From assembly GCF_017814975.1 (NCBI RefSeq), contig NZ_JAGIQA010000003.1, forward strand, positions 124,001-188,000: a stretch of DNA of 64,000 bases. The letters run 5' to 3'. Each line of letters starts with the position of its first letter. The first letter of the stretch is position 1. The position numbers and the translations under genes were made by a program. The notes beneath the pieces are model-generated. The model did not search any database, was not told the origin of the DNA, and saw only the letters and a program-made list of their open reading frames with translations. Below are positions 43,129 through 48,935 of the stretch, piece after piece. The DNA comes from Cupriavidus consociatus (lineage in GTDB: Bacteria; Pseudomonadota; Gammaproteobacteria; Burkholderiales; Burkholderiaceae).

Positions 43129-44781
43129 TCAGGCTACGTCTTCCCGCAGCTGCTTCTTGTTGATCTTGCCGACGCTGGTCTTCGGGATCGCCTCGACGAA
43201 CGTGATGCGGTCGGCTTCGGGCACTGCGTACTTGCTGATACGCTGCGATTCGACGTGTCCCAGCAGGTGCCCGCGGACCTGTTCCGCATCCACGTTGGCG
43301 CCCGGCTTGCGCACCACGAATGCCATCGGCCGTTCACCCCACCTGGCATCGGGGACACCGATCACCGCGCATTCGAGCACGCCGGGCACTTCAGTGATCA
43401 GGTTCTCCACCTCGATCGACGACACCCACTCGCCGCCGGTCTTGATCACGTCCTTGATGCGGTCGACGATCTGCACGAAGCCGTCCTGTCCCATCACCGC
43501 GACGTCCTGCGTGTGCAGGTAGCCGCCGGCCCACAGGTCTTCCGATGCCGCCGGCTTGCCGAAATACGCCTTGGTCAGGAACGGCGCGCGCAGCACGATC
43601 TCGCCGCGGCTCTTGCCGTCGCGCGGCAGGTCCTCCATGTCTTCGCTGACGATGCGGTAGTCCACCAGCGTCACCGGACGGCCGGTGGAGCAACGCATGC
43701 GGACTTCCTCGGCTCGGTCCTTCGGCACGCAGCCGGGCGGCAGCTGCGCCAGCGACACGATCGGGCCGGTCTCCGACATGCCGTAGCCGGCGAAGATGTC
43801 GATGCCGCGAGCCAGCGCCGCCTCGCACAGCGCGGGCGGCAGCGCCGAGCCACCGATGATGATCTTCCACCCGGACAGGTCCGGCTTGCCGTCGGCGCAG
43901 GCCTGCAGCAGCATCTGCAGGATCGTCGGCACGCAGTGCGAGAACGTGACCTTCTCGGTGTCGCGCAACTTCAGCAGCTGGTCGGGCACGTAGCGGCCCG
44001 GCAGCACCGTGCGCAGCCCCAGCATCACGGCAACATACGGAATGCCCCACGCCAGAACGTGGAACATCGGCGTGATCGGCATGTAGACATCCTCGCGATG
44101 CATGCGCTGCCCTTCGCGCGGCGAGCACAGGCTCGTCGCCGATGCCAGCGTGTGCAGCACGATCTCGCGGTGGCTGTAGCAGACGCCCTTCGGATCGCCG
44201 GTAGTGCCGGTGGTATAGAAGGTGGCCGCCTTGGTGTTCTCGTCGAAGTCCGCGAACTCGAAGTCTGCCGGCGCCTGCGCCAGCAGCGCTTCGTACTCGC
44301 CGGCGAACGGCACGCTGGACTTGGGCACGTCCTGGCCATCGGCCAGCAGCACGAAGCGCGGGTTGCCGGTGAGCTGCGGGCGGATCTGCTCGATCACCGG
44401 CAGGAAGTCCGGGTGCACCAGCACGATCGCGGCGCCGGCATCGTTGAGCGTGTACAGGATCTGCTGGGGCGACAGCCGCACATTGACGGTGAACAGCGTC
44501 GCTCCCATCATCGGCACGCCGAAATAGCATTCCAGGTAGCGGTGGCTGTCCCAGTCCATCACGGCCACGGTGCTGCCGTGGCGGATGTCCAGCGCAGCCA
44601 GCGCCGAGGCCAGCTTGCCGATGCGGTGGCGGAAATCGCGGAAGGTGTAGCGCATCTCGCCGCGGTAGCTGATCTCCTGGTCGCCGTAGAGGCTCAGGGC
44701 ATTGGTCAGCAGCTGCTTGACCAGCAGCGGATAGGCGTAGGCCGACTTGGCCGGTGTGATCAGGTTGTCTTGCATGTTCAT
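43129..44781 (-). CDS. AMP-forming acyl-CoA ligase
   Basis: A 550-residue member of the AMP-binding superfamily. The phosphate-binding motif is TFYTTGTTGDPKGVCYSH. The A5-type motif is GYGMSETGPIVSLAQ, the A7/A8 hinge region GGYLHTQDVAVMGQDGFVQI, VDRIKDVIKTGGEWVSS, and the catalytic lysine is in PKTSVGKINKKQLRE. This pattern is typical of medium/long-chain fatty-acyl or aryl-acyl CoA ligases. It activates a carboxylate with ATP and CoA in the cytoplasm. It lies 17 bases after the TauD-type gene in a three-gene minus-strand operon ending in a strong terminator. Substrate unknown. Confidence 0.92.
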   Translation of the reverse strand: MNMQDNLITPAKSAYAYPLLVKQLLTNALSLYGDQEISYRGEMRYTFRDFRHRIGKLASALAALDIRHGSTVAVMDWDSHRYLECYFGVPMMGATLFTVNVRLSPQQILYTLNDAGAAIVLVHPDFLPVIEQIRPQLTGNPRFVLLADGQDVPKSSVPFAGEYEALLAQAPADFEFADFDENTKAATFYTTGTTGDPKGVCYSHREIVLHTLASATSLCSPREGQRMHREDVYMPITPMFHVLAWGIPYVAVMLGLRTVLPGRYVPDQLLKLRDTEKVTFSHCVPTILQMLLQACADGKPDLSGWKIIIGGSALPPALCEAALARGIDIFAGYGMSETGPIVSLAQLPPGCVPKDRAEEVRMRCSTGRPVTLVDYRIVSEDMEDLPRDGKSRGEIVLRAPFLTKAYFGKPAASEDLWAGGYLHTQDVAVMGQDGFVQIVDRIKDVIKTGGEWVSSIEVENLITEVPGVLECAVIGVPDARWGERPMAFVVRKPGANVDAEQVRGHLLGHVESQRISKYAVPEADRITFVEAIPKTSVGKINKKQLREDVA

Positions 44782-44798: not shown

Positions 44799-45647
44799 TC
44801 AGTACGGCCTGGTGCCGATGATGCCGGCCCGCTCCATCTTGCGGTGGCACGGCGGATAATCCATCACCGCGTAATGCTGCGTCGCGGTGTTGTCCCAGAT
44901 CGCCATGCTGTCGGGCGCCCAGCGCCAGCGGACCTGATACTCGGGGATATAGGCCTGGCTCACCAGGTAGCGCAGCAGGTCGGCGGCGCCCGGATTGGCG
45001 TCCTGCCCGAAGCGCACGCGCGCGGCGGTGTGGTAGTTGGTGAAGTGCGTGGTAAAGGCGTTGACGTAAAGCACCTTCTCGCCGGTGTCCGGGTGCGTGC
45101 GCACGACCGGATGCTCGGCATCGGGATACTGCGCCTTCAGCGCCAGGCGCTTCTCGATCGGCATGGCCGCGCCGAAGCTGGCTTCGATGCTGTGGCGCGC
45201 GCGCAGGTCGGCGATCTCTGCCTTGACGTGGTCGGGCAGCCGTTCGTAGGCCAGCGCCATGTTCGCCCACATGGTGTCGCCGCCCACCGGCGGGCATTCC
45301 ACGCAGCGCAGCACCGCGCCGAACTGCGGCGCCTCGCGCCACGTGGTGTCGGAGTGCCAGGCGTTCTCGTAGCGGTCGTTCGGCTGGTCGGGCGTCTTGT
45401 AGATGCGCACCAGGCCCGGGTGTTCCGGATCGCTGCCGGCCACCGGATGATCCTCCAGTTCGCCGAAGCGGCTGGCGAAGGCAACATGCTCGGCCCGGCT
45501 GAGCTTCTGGTCACGCAGGAACAGCACGCGGTGCTGCAGCAGCAATGCGCGGATCTCGGCGAACAAGGCGTCGTCGCGCACGGCATCGGCCAGGTTGACG
45601 CCGCTCAGTTCGGCGCCCAGCGCGCAAGTGAGTTGTTGGACTCGCAT
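44799..45647 (-). CDS. TauD/TfdA-family 2-oxoglutarate-dependent dioxygenase
   Basis: A 282-residue Fe(II)/2-oxoglutarate dioxygenase. N-terminal LTCALGAELSGVNLADAV is the family start. The iron ligands are in NAWHSDTTWRE (HxD) and the distal IWDNTATQHYAVMDYP; the oxoglutarate-binding arginine would be in the last 20 residues (HRKMERAGIIGTRP). Members release sulfite from taurine, cleave 2,4-D or hydroxylate other acids. GAGGAG precedes the ATG. Between a quinone-oxidoreductase gene (12 bases) and the acyl-CoA ligase (17 bases) in one operon. Confidence 0.9.
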   Translation of the reverse strand: MRVQQLTCALGAELSGVNLADAVRDDALFAEIRALLLQHRVLFLRDQKLSRAEHVAFASRFGELEDHPVAGSDPEHPGLVRIYKTPDQPNDRYENAWHSDTTWREAPQFGAVLRCVECPPVGGDTMWANMALAYERLPDHVKAEIADLRARHSIEASFGAAMPIEKRLALKAQYPDAEHPVVRTHPDTGEKVLYVNAFTTHFTNYHTAARVRFGQDANPGAADLLRYLVSQAYIPEYQVRWRWAPDSMAIWDNTATQHYAVMDYPPCHRKMERAGIIGTRPY

Positions 45648-45659
45648 GGCATTGGCTCC

Positions 45660-46640
45660 TCAGATGACAAAGATCGACGAACCGGTGGTCTTGCGCGACT
45701 CCAGGTCGTGGTGCGCCTGCACCGCGTCTTCGAGCGCGTAGCGCTGGTTGATCTCGATCCGGATGCGGCCCGAGCCGACGTGATCGAACAGTTCCCCGGC
45801 CAGCTGTGCCTTCTCTGCCGGATCGAAGATGTAGTCGGCCAGTGCCGGCCGGGTCAGGAACAGCGAACCCTTCATGGCCAGCAGCACCGGGTCGAACGGC
45901 GGGATCGGGCCGGAGGCGGTGCCGACGCAGACCATGGTGCCGCGGCGCCGCAGCGAATCCAGCGATGCCGCGAAGGTGCTCTTGCCGACGCTGTCGAACA
46001 CCACCGACACGCCGACGCCGTCGGTCAGTTCGCGCACGCGCTTGGCCACGTCTTCATGGCTGTAGTTGATGATGTGGTCGCAGCCATGGGCGCGCGCCAC
46101 TTCGGCCTTGGCCTCGCTCGACACCGTGCCGATCACGGTAAGGCCCAGCAGCTTGGCCCATTGCGAGACGATCAGTCCGACGCCGCCGGCCGCGGCATGC
46201 AGCAGGATGGCGTCGCCGGCCTTGAACGCATGGATGCGGCGCATCAGGTACGCTGAGGTCAGGCCGCGCATGGTCATTGCCGCCGCGGTCTCGAAGCCGA
46301 TGGTATCCGGCAGGCGGATCAGCGGTGCCGCCGGCACCAGGCGCTCGGTGCTGTAGGCGCCCAGCGTGTTGATGAAGCCCGTATACGTGACGCGATCCCC
46401 CACGGCGACGTTGGTCACGCCCGGACCGATGGCCTGGACCACGCCCGCGGCCTCGACGCCCATGCCGGACGGCAGCGGCACCGGGTAGGTGCCATTGCGG
46501 AAGTAGGTGTCCGCGTAGTTCAGGCCCACCGCCACGTGGCGGATGCGCACCTGCCCTGCGCCGGGCTCTCCCACCGACGCGTCTTCATAACGCAATACCT
46601 CGGGGCCGCCAGTCTCATACATGCGGACGATCTTTGCCAT
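45660..46640 (-). CDS. zinc-independent quinone oxidoreductase (MDR superfamily)
   Basis: A 326-residue medium-chain dehydrogenase/reductase of the QOR type. It has MYETGGPEVLRYEDASVGEP, NYADTYFRNGTYPVPLPSGMG and the NADPH-binding AILLHAAAGGVGLIVSQWAK near residue 145. It lacks the catalytic-zinc cysteine cluster, as expected for QOR. It reduces quinones or alpha,beta-unsaturated carbonyls. AAGGAG lies nine bases before the ATG at 46640. First gene of the operon with the dioxygenase and acyl-CoA ligase; divergent from the AraC gene at 46833. Confidence 0.92.
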   Translation of the reverse strand: MAKIVRMYETGGPEVLRYEDASVGEPGAGQVRIRHVAVGLNYADTYFRNGTYPVPLPSGMGVEAAGVVQAIGPGVTNVAVGDRVTYTGFINTLGAYSTERLVPAAPLIRLPDTIGFETAAAMTMRGLTSAYLMRRIHAFKAGDAILLHAAAGGVGLIVSQWAKLLGLTVIGTVSSEAKAEVARAHGCDHIINYSHEDVAKRVRELTDGVGVSVVFDSVGKSTFAASLDSLRRRGTMVCVGTASGPIPPFDPVLLAMKGSLFLTRPALADYIFDPAEKAQLAGELFDHVGSGRIRIEINQRYALEDAVQAHHDLESRKTTGSSIFVI

Positions 46641-46707
46641 GCACTTGTCTCCTTGGATCACTGCGGCACCGGTGTGTGCCGCGCATGCATGCAATGTAGG
46701 TCGCAGC

Positions 46708-46746
46708 GGCCCCGTTGGCTTTGCAATAGGCTCCAGCGGCTTTGCA
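46708..46746. promoter_or_regulatory. 18-base direct repeats, 21-base period, AraC-type operator candidate
   Basis: Repeats at 46708-46725 and 46729-46746 share GGC and the 9-base GGCTTTGCA and agree at 14 of 18 positions; the period is exactly 21. An inverted TGCAAAG half-site follows at about 46776. The site lies between the QOR operon and the AraC gene. A related GGCTTGCATTTC occurs at 47892, just before the second AraC gene. Confidence 0.7.
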
Positions 46747-46832
46747 TTTCATGCCAAGCCCGCCTATCATGCCGCTGCAAAGACAATGCGGCGGCCTTAC
46801 CGAGGGCCAGCCGCCATAAGCGGGAGACAACC

Positions 46833-47867
46833 TTGGACACCCTGGTACGTGCGGCTGCACTGACCAACTTCTTTGAAGTGGCCGGCGCGCTCGGCCTCAA
46901 TACGCAGCCCTTGCTGCGCACCGCCAGGCTCAGCCGGGCGCTGCTGGCGGAGCCGGACCAGCGCATCCCGGTGGGCGCCTGCGCCACGCTGCTGGAAGCC
47001 GCCGCCAAGGCCGCGGACTGCCCGACCTTTGGCCTGCGCATGGCGGAATCACGGCAGCTGTCGGACTTTGGCGTGATGAGCCTGCTGATCAGCCAGCAGC
47101 CCACGCTGCGCGCCGCGCTCGCCACGATCATCCGCTACCGGCACCTGGTCAACGAATCGGTGTCGATCCTGCTGGAAGAGGCTGGCGGCGCGGTCATCAT
47201 CCGCCAGGAAATCGTGCTTGACCAGCCTTCGCGCCAGGGCACCGAACTGGCGCTGGGCGTGGTGTTCCGCCTGTGCCGGGCCTTGCTCGGCTCGCACTGG
47301 CGCCCGCTGAGCATCAACTTCACGCACGCGGCGCCAGATGACCTGCGGGTCCACCGGCGCATCTTCGGCTGCCCGCTTGAGTTCGACAGCGAATTCAACG
47401 GCATCGTGTGCCGGGCAGCCGACCTCGACGCGCCCAACCCGACTGGCGATCCGGCCATGGCGCGCTATGCCCAGCAGTTTGTCGACACGCTGCCGCGCTT
47501 CAACGCGCCGAGCATCGGCCGGGACGTACGCAATGCCGTCTACCTGATGCTGCCGATGGGCCGCGCCACCTCTGAAGGCGTGGCCCAGGGACTGGGACTC
47601 AGCCTGCGCACCATGCAGCGCCAGCTCGATGAAGCCGGTGAAACCTTCACCGACATCCTCAACGAGGTACGGCGCGAACTGGCGCTGCGCTATGTGGAGA
47701 ACCCGCATTACGCGATGTTGCGGGTGGCGGAACTGCTGGGCTACAGCTCGGCCAGCACGTTCACGCGCTGGTTCTCGATCCAGTTCGGTGAACCGCCGCT
47801 GGCATGGCGCCGGCGGCACGCAAACGGCAACACAAGCGCTGCTGGCGCTGAAGCCGTGCAACGATGA
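46833..47867 (+). CDS. AraC-family regulator, first of a tandem pair
   Basis: A 344-residue AraC/XylS regulator. The arabinose-binding-type N-domain spans about 10-190 (LTNFFEVAGALGLNTQPLLR, then FGLRMAESRQLSDFGVMSLL). The double HTH at the C-terminus includes SEGVAQGLGLSLRTMQRQLD and MLRVAELLGYSSASTFTRWF, ending FGEPPLAWRRRH. The TTG start at 46833 is supported by GGGAG eight bases upstream; the open frame further up is out of domain. It probably activates the divergent QOR-dioxygenase-ligase operon. Confidence 0.9.
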   Translation: MDTLVRAAALTNFFEVAGALGLNTQPLLRTARLSRALLAEPDQRIPVGACATLLEAAAKAADCPTFGLRMAESRQLSDFGVMSLLISQQPTLRAALATIIRYRHLVNESVSILLEEAGGAVIIRQEIVLDQPSRQGTELALGVVFRLCRALLGSHWRPLSINFTHAAPDDLRVHRRIFGCPLEFDSEFNGIVCRAADLDAPNPTGDPAMARYAQQFVDTLPRFNAPSIGRDVRNAVYLMLPMGRATSEGVAQGLGLSLRTMQRQLDEAGETFTDILNEVRRELALRYVENPHYAMLRVAELLGYSSASTFTRWFSIQFGEPPLAWRRRHANGNTSAAGAEAVQR

Positions 47868-47927
47868 GCGGCCAGCCCTTAGAAGGCCCTCGGCTTGCAT
47901 TTCGCGACACTTGGATAACGTAACGCG

Positions 47928-48935
47928 ATGTCTTACTACCTGCGCAGCGCCAGCCTTACCAACTATGTCGAAGTGGCTCGTGCCGTTGGCCTCGATCCAC
48001 ACCAGCAGATGCGCGCGGCCAAGATCAGCCGCGACGTGCTGCTCGATCCCGATATCCGCATTCCCGCCGCGCTGGTGGGACGCCTGCTGGATTCCTCCGC
48101 ACGTGCCGCGCAGGTGGACGATTTCGGCCTGCGCATGGCGGAGCTGCGCCAGTTCTCGAACCTCGGGCCGCTGGCCTTCGTGGTGCGCGAGCAGCCCACA
48201 CTGCGCCGCGCGCTGGAGTCCATGGTGCGATACATGGGCCTGCAGAACGAATCACTGGCCATGCGCCTGGAGGAATCCGAAGGACTGGTCATCATCCGGC
48301 TCCAGGTCCTGAGCGAGGAGTCCGGCGTGCTGCGCCAGGCCACCGACCTCGCCGTGGGCGTGATGTTCCGCATGCTGAGCCTGTTCCTGGGCACCTCGTG
48401 GCGCCCGCGCAGCATCTGCTTTACCCACGCGGCACCCGCGAGCGCGGCGACCTGCATGCGCGTGTTCGGCATCGACCCGCTGTTCAACCAGGACTTCGAC
48501 GGCATCGTCTGCGTCGCCGCCGACCTCGAGGCCCCGCTGCCCTCCTACGACCCGGCGATGGCCGGCCAGGTCAAGCGCTACCTCGGCAGCCTGCTGGCCC
48601 AGGCCAATGCGACCGCGCCGGACAAGGTGCGCAAGCTGGTCTACGTGCTGCTGCCAACCGGCATGTGCTCGGTCGACCGGGTGGCCCAGCACCTGGGGGT
48701 GGACCGGCGCACCATCCACCGCCGCCTGGCGCGCGACCAGACCAGCTATTCCGAGATCCTGAACCAGGTACGTGCGGGGCTGGTGGTGGGCTATATCGAG
48801 AACCCCGACAGGCCGTTGTCGGAGGTGGCGACGCTGCTGGGATTTACTTCACTGAGCACGTTTTCGCGCTGGTTCAGCGGCGAGTTTGGCTGCAGCGTGT
48901 CGAAGTGGCGGTCGCAACAGGCCCAGCGGGCGTAG
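47928..48935 (+). CDS. AraC-family regulator, second of a tandem pair
   Basis: A 335-residue paralogue of the preceding regulator with the same layout: ASLTNYVEVARAVGLDPHQQ, FGLRMAELRQFSNLGPLAFV, then SVDRVAQHLGVDRRTIHRRL and LSEVATLLGFTSLSTFSRWF, ending FGCSVSKWRSQQ. It is clearly related to its neighbour, indicating tandem duplication followed by divergence. The gap is 60 bases. No strong ribosome binding site precedes the ATG. It may control the same operon or a distant one. Confidence 0.9.
   Translation: MSYYLRSASLTNYVEVARAVGLDPHQQMRAAKISRDVLLDPDIRIPAALVGRLLDSSARAAQVDDFGLRMAELRQFSNLGPLAFVVREQPTLRRALESMVRYMGLQNESLAMRLEESEGLVIIRLQVLSEESGVLRQATDLAVGVMFRMLSLFLGTSWRPRSICFTHAAPASAATCMRVFGIDPLFNQDFDGIVCVAADLEAPLPSYDPAMAGQVKRYLGSLLAQANATAPDKVRKLVYVLLPTGMCSVDRVAQHLGVDRRTIHRRLARDQTSYSEILNQVRAGLVVGYIENPDRPLSEVATLLGFTSLSTFSRWFSGEFGCSVSKWRSQQAQRA

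Follow-up and report, generated by a model that had tools for sequence, protein, structure and literature searches.

In the araI1-I2 operator, AraC occupies 17-bp half-sites that recur with a 21-bp period and acts as an activator overlapping the -35 element. Precedents for such direct-repeat geometry are described, in the available excerpts of the cited papers, for XylS (PMC4225500), ArgR (PMC10963909; PMC4997734), CdhR (PMC5806209), and SphR (PMC3900636). The XylS-dependent promoter Pm carries two direct repeats, the second of which overlaps the -35 element by two bases, an overlap reported as essential for initiation (excerpt of PMC4225500), and ArgR of Pseudomonas recognizes a tandem TGTCGCN6GNAA box with 5 bp between the copies (i.e., a 21-bp period) in which A15 and A16 are highly conserved (excerpt of PMC10963909). 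In Pseudomonas aeruginosa, the CdhR gene lies divergent from a catabolic operon, and the caiX site consists of GGTCGC direct repeats with a 15-bp spacer, again a 21-bp period; CdhR was also proposed to inhibit its own gene (excerpt of PMC5806209). SphR of the same species uses two direct-repeat half-sites, and induction is lost when the first TG is mutated (excerpt of PMC3900636). The sites of CdhR and SphR are tested direct-repeat sites in the family (PMC5806209; PMC3900636). For SlfR, a PF12625 regulator of plasmid pP62BP1, TTGA(N6)AGGACA repeats were predicted and likened to XylS sites (excerpt of PMC3346939).

In the current study, we describe a candidate operator of this kind in the window, that is, the stretch of 64,000 nucleotides of Cupriavidus consociatus DNA that was analysed as a whole (Table 1). 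An AraC-type activator very probably binds the repeat between the QOR and AraC1 genes and thereby turns on a small metabolic operon. More specifically, we consider it highly likely, judging from sequence comparison, that positions 46719–46756 form an operator with two half-sites, to which an AraC1 dimer would bind so as to activate the QOR-TauD-ligase operon and, in Cupriavidus, repress AraC1. QOR is a quinone reductase of the zinc-binding-dehydrogenase family, and the nearest solved chain to TauD is 5vn6, named ‘Taurine dioxygenase’ (E 1e-165). The gaps of 12 and 23 bases between the three leftward genes suggest that QOR, TauD, and the ligase form one operon. Our literature search found no publication that treats Cupriavidus TauD together with acyl-CoA synthetase, nor QhpR with AraC.

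Table 1. Features of the candidate operator region and neighbouring genes (window coordinates).
Feature	Position	Strand	Remarks
Acyl-CoA synthetase (AMP-binding; ligase)	43129..44775	-	Third gene of proposed operon
TauD/TfdA-family dioxygenase (TauD)	44799..45647	-	Second gene of proposed operon
QOR, NADPH:quinone reductase-like	45660..46640	-	First gene of proposed operon
QOR -10-like hexamer	46693..46698	-	TACATT (4/6); 20 bp from half-site 1
QOR weak -35 position	46716-46721	-	AAGCCA (3/6); best hexamer at spacing 16-18
Half-site 1, QOR-promoter-proximal (candidate)	46719..46735	-	Plus strand CTTTGCAATAGGCTCCA; QOR sense TGGAGCCTATTGCAAAG
Spacer, 4 bp, giving a 21-bp period	46736..46739	.	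Invariant columns 0/4; length constant
Half-site 2, QOR-promoter-distal (candidate)	46740..46756	-	Plus strand CTTTGCATTTCATGCCA; QOR sense TGGCATGAAATGCAAAG
AraC1 sigma-70-like promoter	46741..46770	+	TTTGCA/18/TATCAT or TTGCAT/17/TATCAT; -35 within half-site 2
AraC1, AraC-family regulator	46833..47867	+	PF12625 + HTH_18; TTG start; proposed binder
Half-site-like remnant before AraC2	47893..47909	-	Plus strand GCTTGCATTTCGCGACA; aligns with AraC2’s own element elsewhere
AraC2, second PF12625 AraC regulator	47928..48935	+	

The tandem repeat and its conservation

The original prediction of two 18-base repeats with an identical 9-base block, spaced by 21 bases between divergent genes, is borne out: the copies at 46708–46725 and 46729–46746 are 78% alike, with complete identity over GGCTTTGCA (46717–46725 and 46738–46746), and lie between the starts of QOR (46640) and AraC1 (46833). 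The exact GGCTTTGCA pair with 8–16 bases between its members occurs once in the whole genome, and single 9-mers with at most one mismatch are about as frequent in the window as expected (21 vs. 19.4). When the 192-base intergenic region was shuffled with dinucleotides preserved, a run of at least 9 identical bases appeared at period 21 in 3 of 5000 shuffles; the best 17-base match in the window alone was equal at periods 43 and 21 (13/17 each). The single-sequence case against chance is moderate and suggestive, not decisive, and we accept the repeat as real because conservation decides. The reading of a chance repeat, or of leftover promoter-region similarity without regulator binding, draws on the 267 of 5000 shuffles in which a period between 10 and 60 gave such a run, and is countered by the alignments as follows.

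AraC1 was searched in 60 genomes including the window’s own, 47 of which gave some match, and the intergenic regions of 22 loci with divergent QOR and AraC1 genes (L002–L013 and L015–L024, the window’s own among them) were aligned. The arrangement GCTTTGCA-N13-CTTTGCATTTCATGCCA and its 21-base period are kept unchanged in all 22; measured from CTTTGCA to CTTTGCA, the variable stretch is 14 bases. All 17 columns of half-site 2 are invariant, as are 8 of the 17 in half-site 1, including CTTTGCA in 22/22, compared with 10 of 142 columns in the remaining intergenic region once the two -10 hexamers are left out. This contrast, together with the retention of the half-sites in other genera, leaves chance or leftover similarity a vanishingly small probability. 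Period 21 also ranks top on average across 27 Cupriavidus loci and likewise across 8 loci of other genera. Outside this set of 22, the operator of L014 carries a single mismatch, and the leftward neighbour there is a ligase match instead of a QOR match; QOR is absent beside the AraC1 of L025 (65% identity).

The same alignment places the half-site boundaries as first drawn out of register. No column of 46708–46717 is invariant (the best, 46708 and 46716, agree in 19/22), 46718 is invariant, and 46747–46756 (TTTCATGCCA), beyond the interval first drawn, is invariant in 22/22. The half-site therefore appears better defined as 17 bp, CTTTGCA-N5-TGCCA, at 46719–46735 and 46740–46756. This register was fixed because the proximal half-sites of the eight other-genus loci, which are closer to TGGC-N7-TG-N2-AAG, in most cases approach the full form (e.g., CTTCGCAAGTCGCGCCA); the proximal half-site of the window has TGGA in place of TGGC. 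In half-site 2, TGGC and A15A16 are invariant in 35 of 35 loci, a count favoured by a site-finding pattern that prefers these letters. What is found is two direct half-sites of about 17 bp at a 21-bp period, the form of an AraC-type tandem operator. The inverted half-site proposed near 46776 (TGCAAAGAC at 46776–46784, matching the inverted word in 8/9 bases) is retained in only 4 of the 22 intergenic regions and was ruled out as part of the operator.

Two search patterns were set aside. CTTTGCA-N14-CTTTGCA with 3 mismatches was too loose (471 matches vs. 261 for the reversed control), and TGCA-N5-TGCCA-N7-TGCA-N5-TGCCA with 2 mismatches gave, genome-wide, many matches that seemed coding as read from the letters, with a reversed control that matched most genomes; from the loose-pattern matches, mainly those with CTTTGCA-like second halves were pursued. 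A scan of genome contigs supplied 20 named relatives, of which 14 have a site at threshold, two (L199 and L200) have one only with 5 mismatches, and four (Pseudomonas, Citrobacter, a second Variovorax, and Streptomyces) have none at threshold. QOR adjoining AraC1 with a 21-bp-period element was found, using a simple and partly wrong script for the gene calls around sites, in Polaromonas, Variovorax, Xenophilus, a Curvibacter MAG, a Dechloromonas MAG, a Comamonadaceae bacterium, an uncultured beta-proteobacterium MAG, and a bacterium MAG; six of these eight loci pass the site threshold, the exceptions being L199 and L200.

Two promoters and the direction of control

In 40 of 40 loci, namely the 22 aligned loci, L014, five further Cupriavidus loci, eight outgroup loci, and four operon copies without AraC1, a TANANT hexamer faces QOR (in L014, the ligase match) at a distance of exactly 20 bp from the operator. 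This set of 40 omits L189 and L195 (judged to duplicate L006 and L010), L192 (where the operator is present), and L203, L206, L207, and L208, which have no site at threshold (L203 and L206 have weaker period-21 look-alikes); since the genomes are related, neither 22/22 nor 40/40 is a set of independent counts. The hexamer at 20 bp matches in only 4/6 positions, and in a few loci (e.g., L196) another 4-of-6 hexamer ties with it. Among the 35 loci measured, the best -35 hexamer at spacings of 16–18 has 3/6 matches in the window and no more than 1 or 2 in each of the remaining 34. If the spacer is 17 bp long, the -35 position shares 3 bp with half-site 1. A fixed -10 distance without a good -35 points to an activator-type geometry of the operator.

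The proposed mechanism would work as follows. Each subunit of an AraC1 dimer would take one 17-bp half-site (TGGCATGAAATGCAAAG in the QOR sense), and the direct repeats, 21 bp apart, would present both to the same helix face. With half-site 1 overlapping the poor candidate -35 of the QOR-TauD-ligase promoter, AraC1 would recruit RNA polymerase and turn the operon on, probably upon binding the operon’s substrate or product as ligand. In Cupriavidus, the operator would also cover the -35 element and part of the spacer of AraC1’s rightward promoter, and repression of AraC1 is expected because that -35 is covered. Binding by AraC1, the ligand, activation, and autorepression are what we infer from these features, and autorepression in Cupriavidus is plausible.

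A different weighting of the two promoters would make the operator serve chiefly AraC1’s own rightward promoter, with control of QOR secondary or absent. The AraC1 promoter is the sole promoter-like, consensus-like sigma-70 site found in 46400–48100 (0.2 expected), its -35 falls within half-site 2, and all 28 Cupriavidus loci that have AraC1 retain a rightward TATNAT. On the plus strand, moreover, TGCA-N5-TGCCA resembles the XylS half-site TGCAN6GGNTA and follows the XylS box order, which would aim the operator at AraC1, not QOR. We ranked this plus-strand reading second because the constant partner of the operator is the QOR-facing -10, on whose fixed position the proposed orientation toward QOR rests. 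The operon copies that lack an adjoining AraC1 (L108, L109, L181, and L182; QOR, TauD, and ligase at 86–93% identity, the ligase of L181 being in two overlapping pieces) speak against service chiefly to AraC1. No AraC1 ortholog is present in the 13–17 kb around them, and all four retain the operator and the QOR-facing -10 without the rightward AraC1 -10, as do the eight outgroup loci; 3–15 bp beyond the operator, no hexamer in these twelve loci exceeds 3/6. The operator would thus belong to the operon, since copies that lack the AraC1 -10 keep it, and service chiefly to AraC1’s own promoter is very improbable.

AraC1, AraC2, and the operators of related regulators

AraC1 scores 183.2 bits against PF12625 (cut-off 27.6) and 56.9 against HTH_18 (33.6), which places it in the PF12625 AraC family; its closest solved chain is VirS (8rcx, E 2.9e-28). 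AraC2 likewise has a PF12625 domain together with an AraC HTH domain. Among NCBIfam equivalogs, it falls below the cut-offs of QhpR (207 of 250), GliR (135.6 of 570), and CypR (74.1 of 500), as does AraC2 for the same three. The genome of the window holds 25 sequence matches to AraC1, and four of its regulators (AraC1, AraC2, and the ones in L103 and L105) were confirmed to carry PF12625. The extended operator pattern with at most 3 mismatches occurs in the window’s own genome and in every one of the 22 same-genus genomes whose AraC1 reaches 73% identity, and the 12 genomes without such an AraC1 all lack it; G012, whose AraC1 homolog is 65% identical and whose genome is 54% complete, has no site. 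The pattern also matches in 2 of 24 genomes of other orders, the reversed control has one match in each of 9 genomes, and part of the co-occurrence is automatic because most sites adjoin AraC1. The predicted AraC-type tandem operator for the QOR-dioxygenase-ligase operon finds support, by comparison, in these two half-sites at a 21-bp period, which lie beside AraC1 and appear to be inherited together with it.

Cross-control of the two tandem regulators, also predicted originally, fares less well. The shorter copy before AraC2 exists (GGCTTGCATTTC at 47892–47903), but it was rejected as a copy of the AraC1 operator, since it aligns with half of AraC2’s own element. Ten regions upstream of AraC2 were aligned (eight detached copies and two tandem ones, L099 and L113). 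The eight detached copies carry a different conserved element, with TTGACGATCCGGGAC... and TTTACATTTCGGGACA in most, for which period 21 ranks top, alone or tied, in 7 of 8 (L096 favours 22). Only the second half of this element is alignable in L099, L113, and the window (47893–47909), and no 21-bp partner was found for it in L099 and L113 (7 and 8 of 17) or, judged by eye, in the window. The segments that we take to be the first recognition helices also differ, LSLRTMQRQL in AraC1 versus VDRRTIHRRL in AraC2. With an element of its own and a differing helix, AraC2 lends no support to cross-control on the sequence evidence.

AraC2 might nevertheless bind the 46719–46756 operator instead of AraC1, or both might do so: the two are PF12625 AraC regulators, and in the window TTGCATTTC occurs both in half-site 2 and in the 47893 element. 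AraC2 also lies close to the operon in seven of the eight wider loci; it adjoins AraC1 in one of them and is found about 2.5–7 kb past the operon in the other six, and in L094, the remaining locus, the AraC2 candidate falls outside the stretch fetched. Two of the four AraC1-less operon copies (L108 and L109) have an AraC2 ortholog about 3.8 kb away from the ligase gene. AraC1 and AraC2 stand side by side in only 5 of the 22 aligned loci (L002–L006). The distinct element upstream of the eight detached copies and the dissimilar helix, as we assign it, make binding by AraC2 very improbable, and AraC1 stays the preferred binder. In the one locus scanned, a detached AraC2 (L092:12697-13752) is divergent from a gene for a beta-keto acid cleavage enzyme (BKACE), which is perhaps AraC2’s original target; in the window, AraC1 and no such gene lies upstream of AraC2.

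Elements before other paralogs extend the picture. In paralog group P1, a clear 21-bp direct repeat precedes the regulator in 11 of 13 members. Group P2, convincing by eye, was dropped as support because it fails the count: period 21 is the single best in 1 of 12 members, with an average score of 9.83 against 9.33 for the next period. Among 11 hand-picked half-sites in operon sense, 9 start with TG.C and 7 contain A15A16, with A16 missing from the two of P1, a pattern resembling the tandem ArgR box TGTCGCN6GNAA as given in the excerpt of PMC10963909. It is conceivable, if doubtful, that Cupriavidus PF12625 AraC regulators share one operator grammar (17-bp half-sites that start with TGKC in operon sense, in tandem at 21 bp before a divergent promoter), in which a few bases such as TGGC or TGTC and the first recognition helix would choose the paralog; if so, sequence would suffice to assign operators and regulons, even dispersed sites that have no regulator next to them.

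The 17+4+17 grammar was also seen at L102:5707-5744 and L100:8559-8596, with similar sites in L110, L111, L169–L179, L183, and L184. These dispersed sites precede a PF03601 (YeiH-like) membrane protein gene in six loci with a full match and in L169 with a partial one, and in 10 loci an orphan 110-aa protein without a Pfam match. They adjoin no AraC1- or AraC2-like gene (L100 has one about 3 kb off) and are perhaps a small regulon of another AraC paralog. A close variant at L111:8359-8396 (CTTTGCATGGACTGCCG-N4-CTTTGCATTTGATGCCA), near a sodium:sulfate symporter gene, recurs at L112:2750-2787 and L188:6188-6225.

Comparison with known AraC-family systems

The candidate operator is a well-conserved, ordinary example of a known bacterial switch, and the mechanism proposed for it is a textbook one. 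Its value is that the QOR-TauD-ligase operon, which many Cupriavidus keep (QOR and TauD, at least, also some other bacteria), now has a proposed regulator and operator, together with two proposed promoters. Positions 46719–46756 offer a precise 38-bp target for binding tests, and the operator, together with the elements before the paralogs, is a natural set for studying AraC-type site choice.

Compared with AraC at araI1-I2, the ligand and the operon differ. Relative to the ArgR box, as far as the excerpt describes it (PMC10963909), TGGC...A15A16 at a 21-bp period is alike, whereas the third base is G, not T, the distal half-site lacks GC at positions 5–6, and the regulator and operon are others; a TGTCGC start at positions 1–6 is absent from the distal half-site, which begins with TGGC in 35 of 35 loci, and is found in one proximal half-site (L200). 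The putative overlap of about 3 bp with the -35, if the spacer is 17 bp, recalls XylS at Pm, but the reading direction relative to the promoter would be opposite to that of TGCAN6GGNTA, unless the first box is taken to be TGGCA (excerpt of PMC4225500). Like CdhR, AraC1 is encoded divergently from a catabolic operon with a 21-bp repeat period, although CdhR is described as a class I (upstream) activator with another half-site (excerpt of PMC5806209). SphR shares AraC-family membership and two direct-repeat half-sites but, in the excerpt, has the half-site TGNCCSNNRNNSNCC with 6–8 bp between half-sites (PMC3900636). Finally, SlfR likewise belongs to PF12625 and is encoded divergently from a catabolic operon that includes an acyl-CoA ligase gene, and its operator, like the one described here, is a predicted one; the SlfR operon differs in having an alkyl sulfatase and dehydrogenases (excerpt of PMC3346939).
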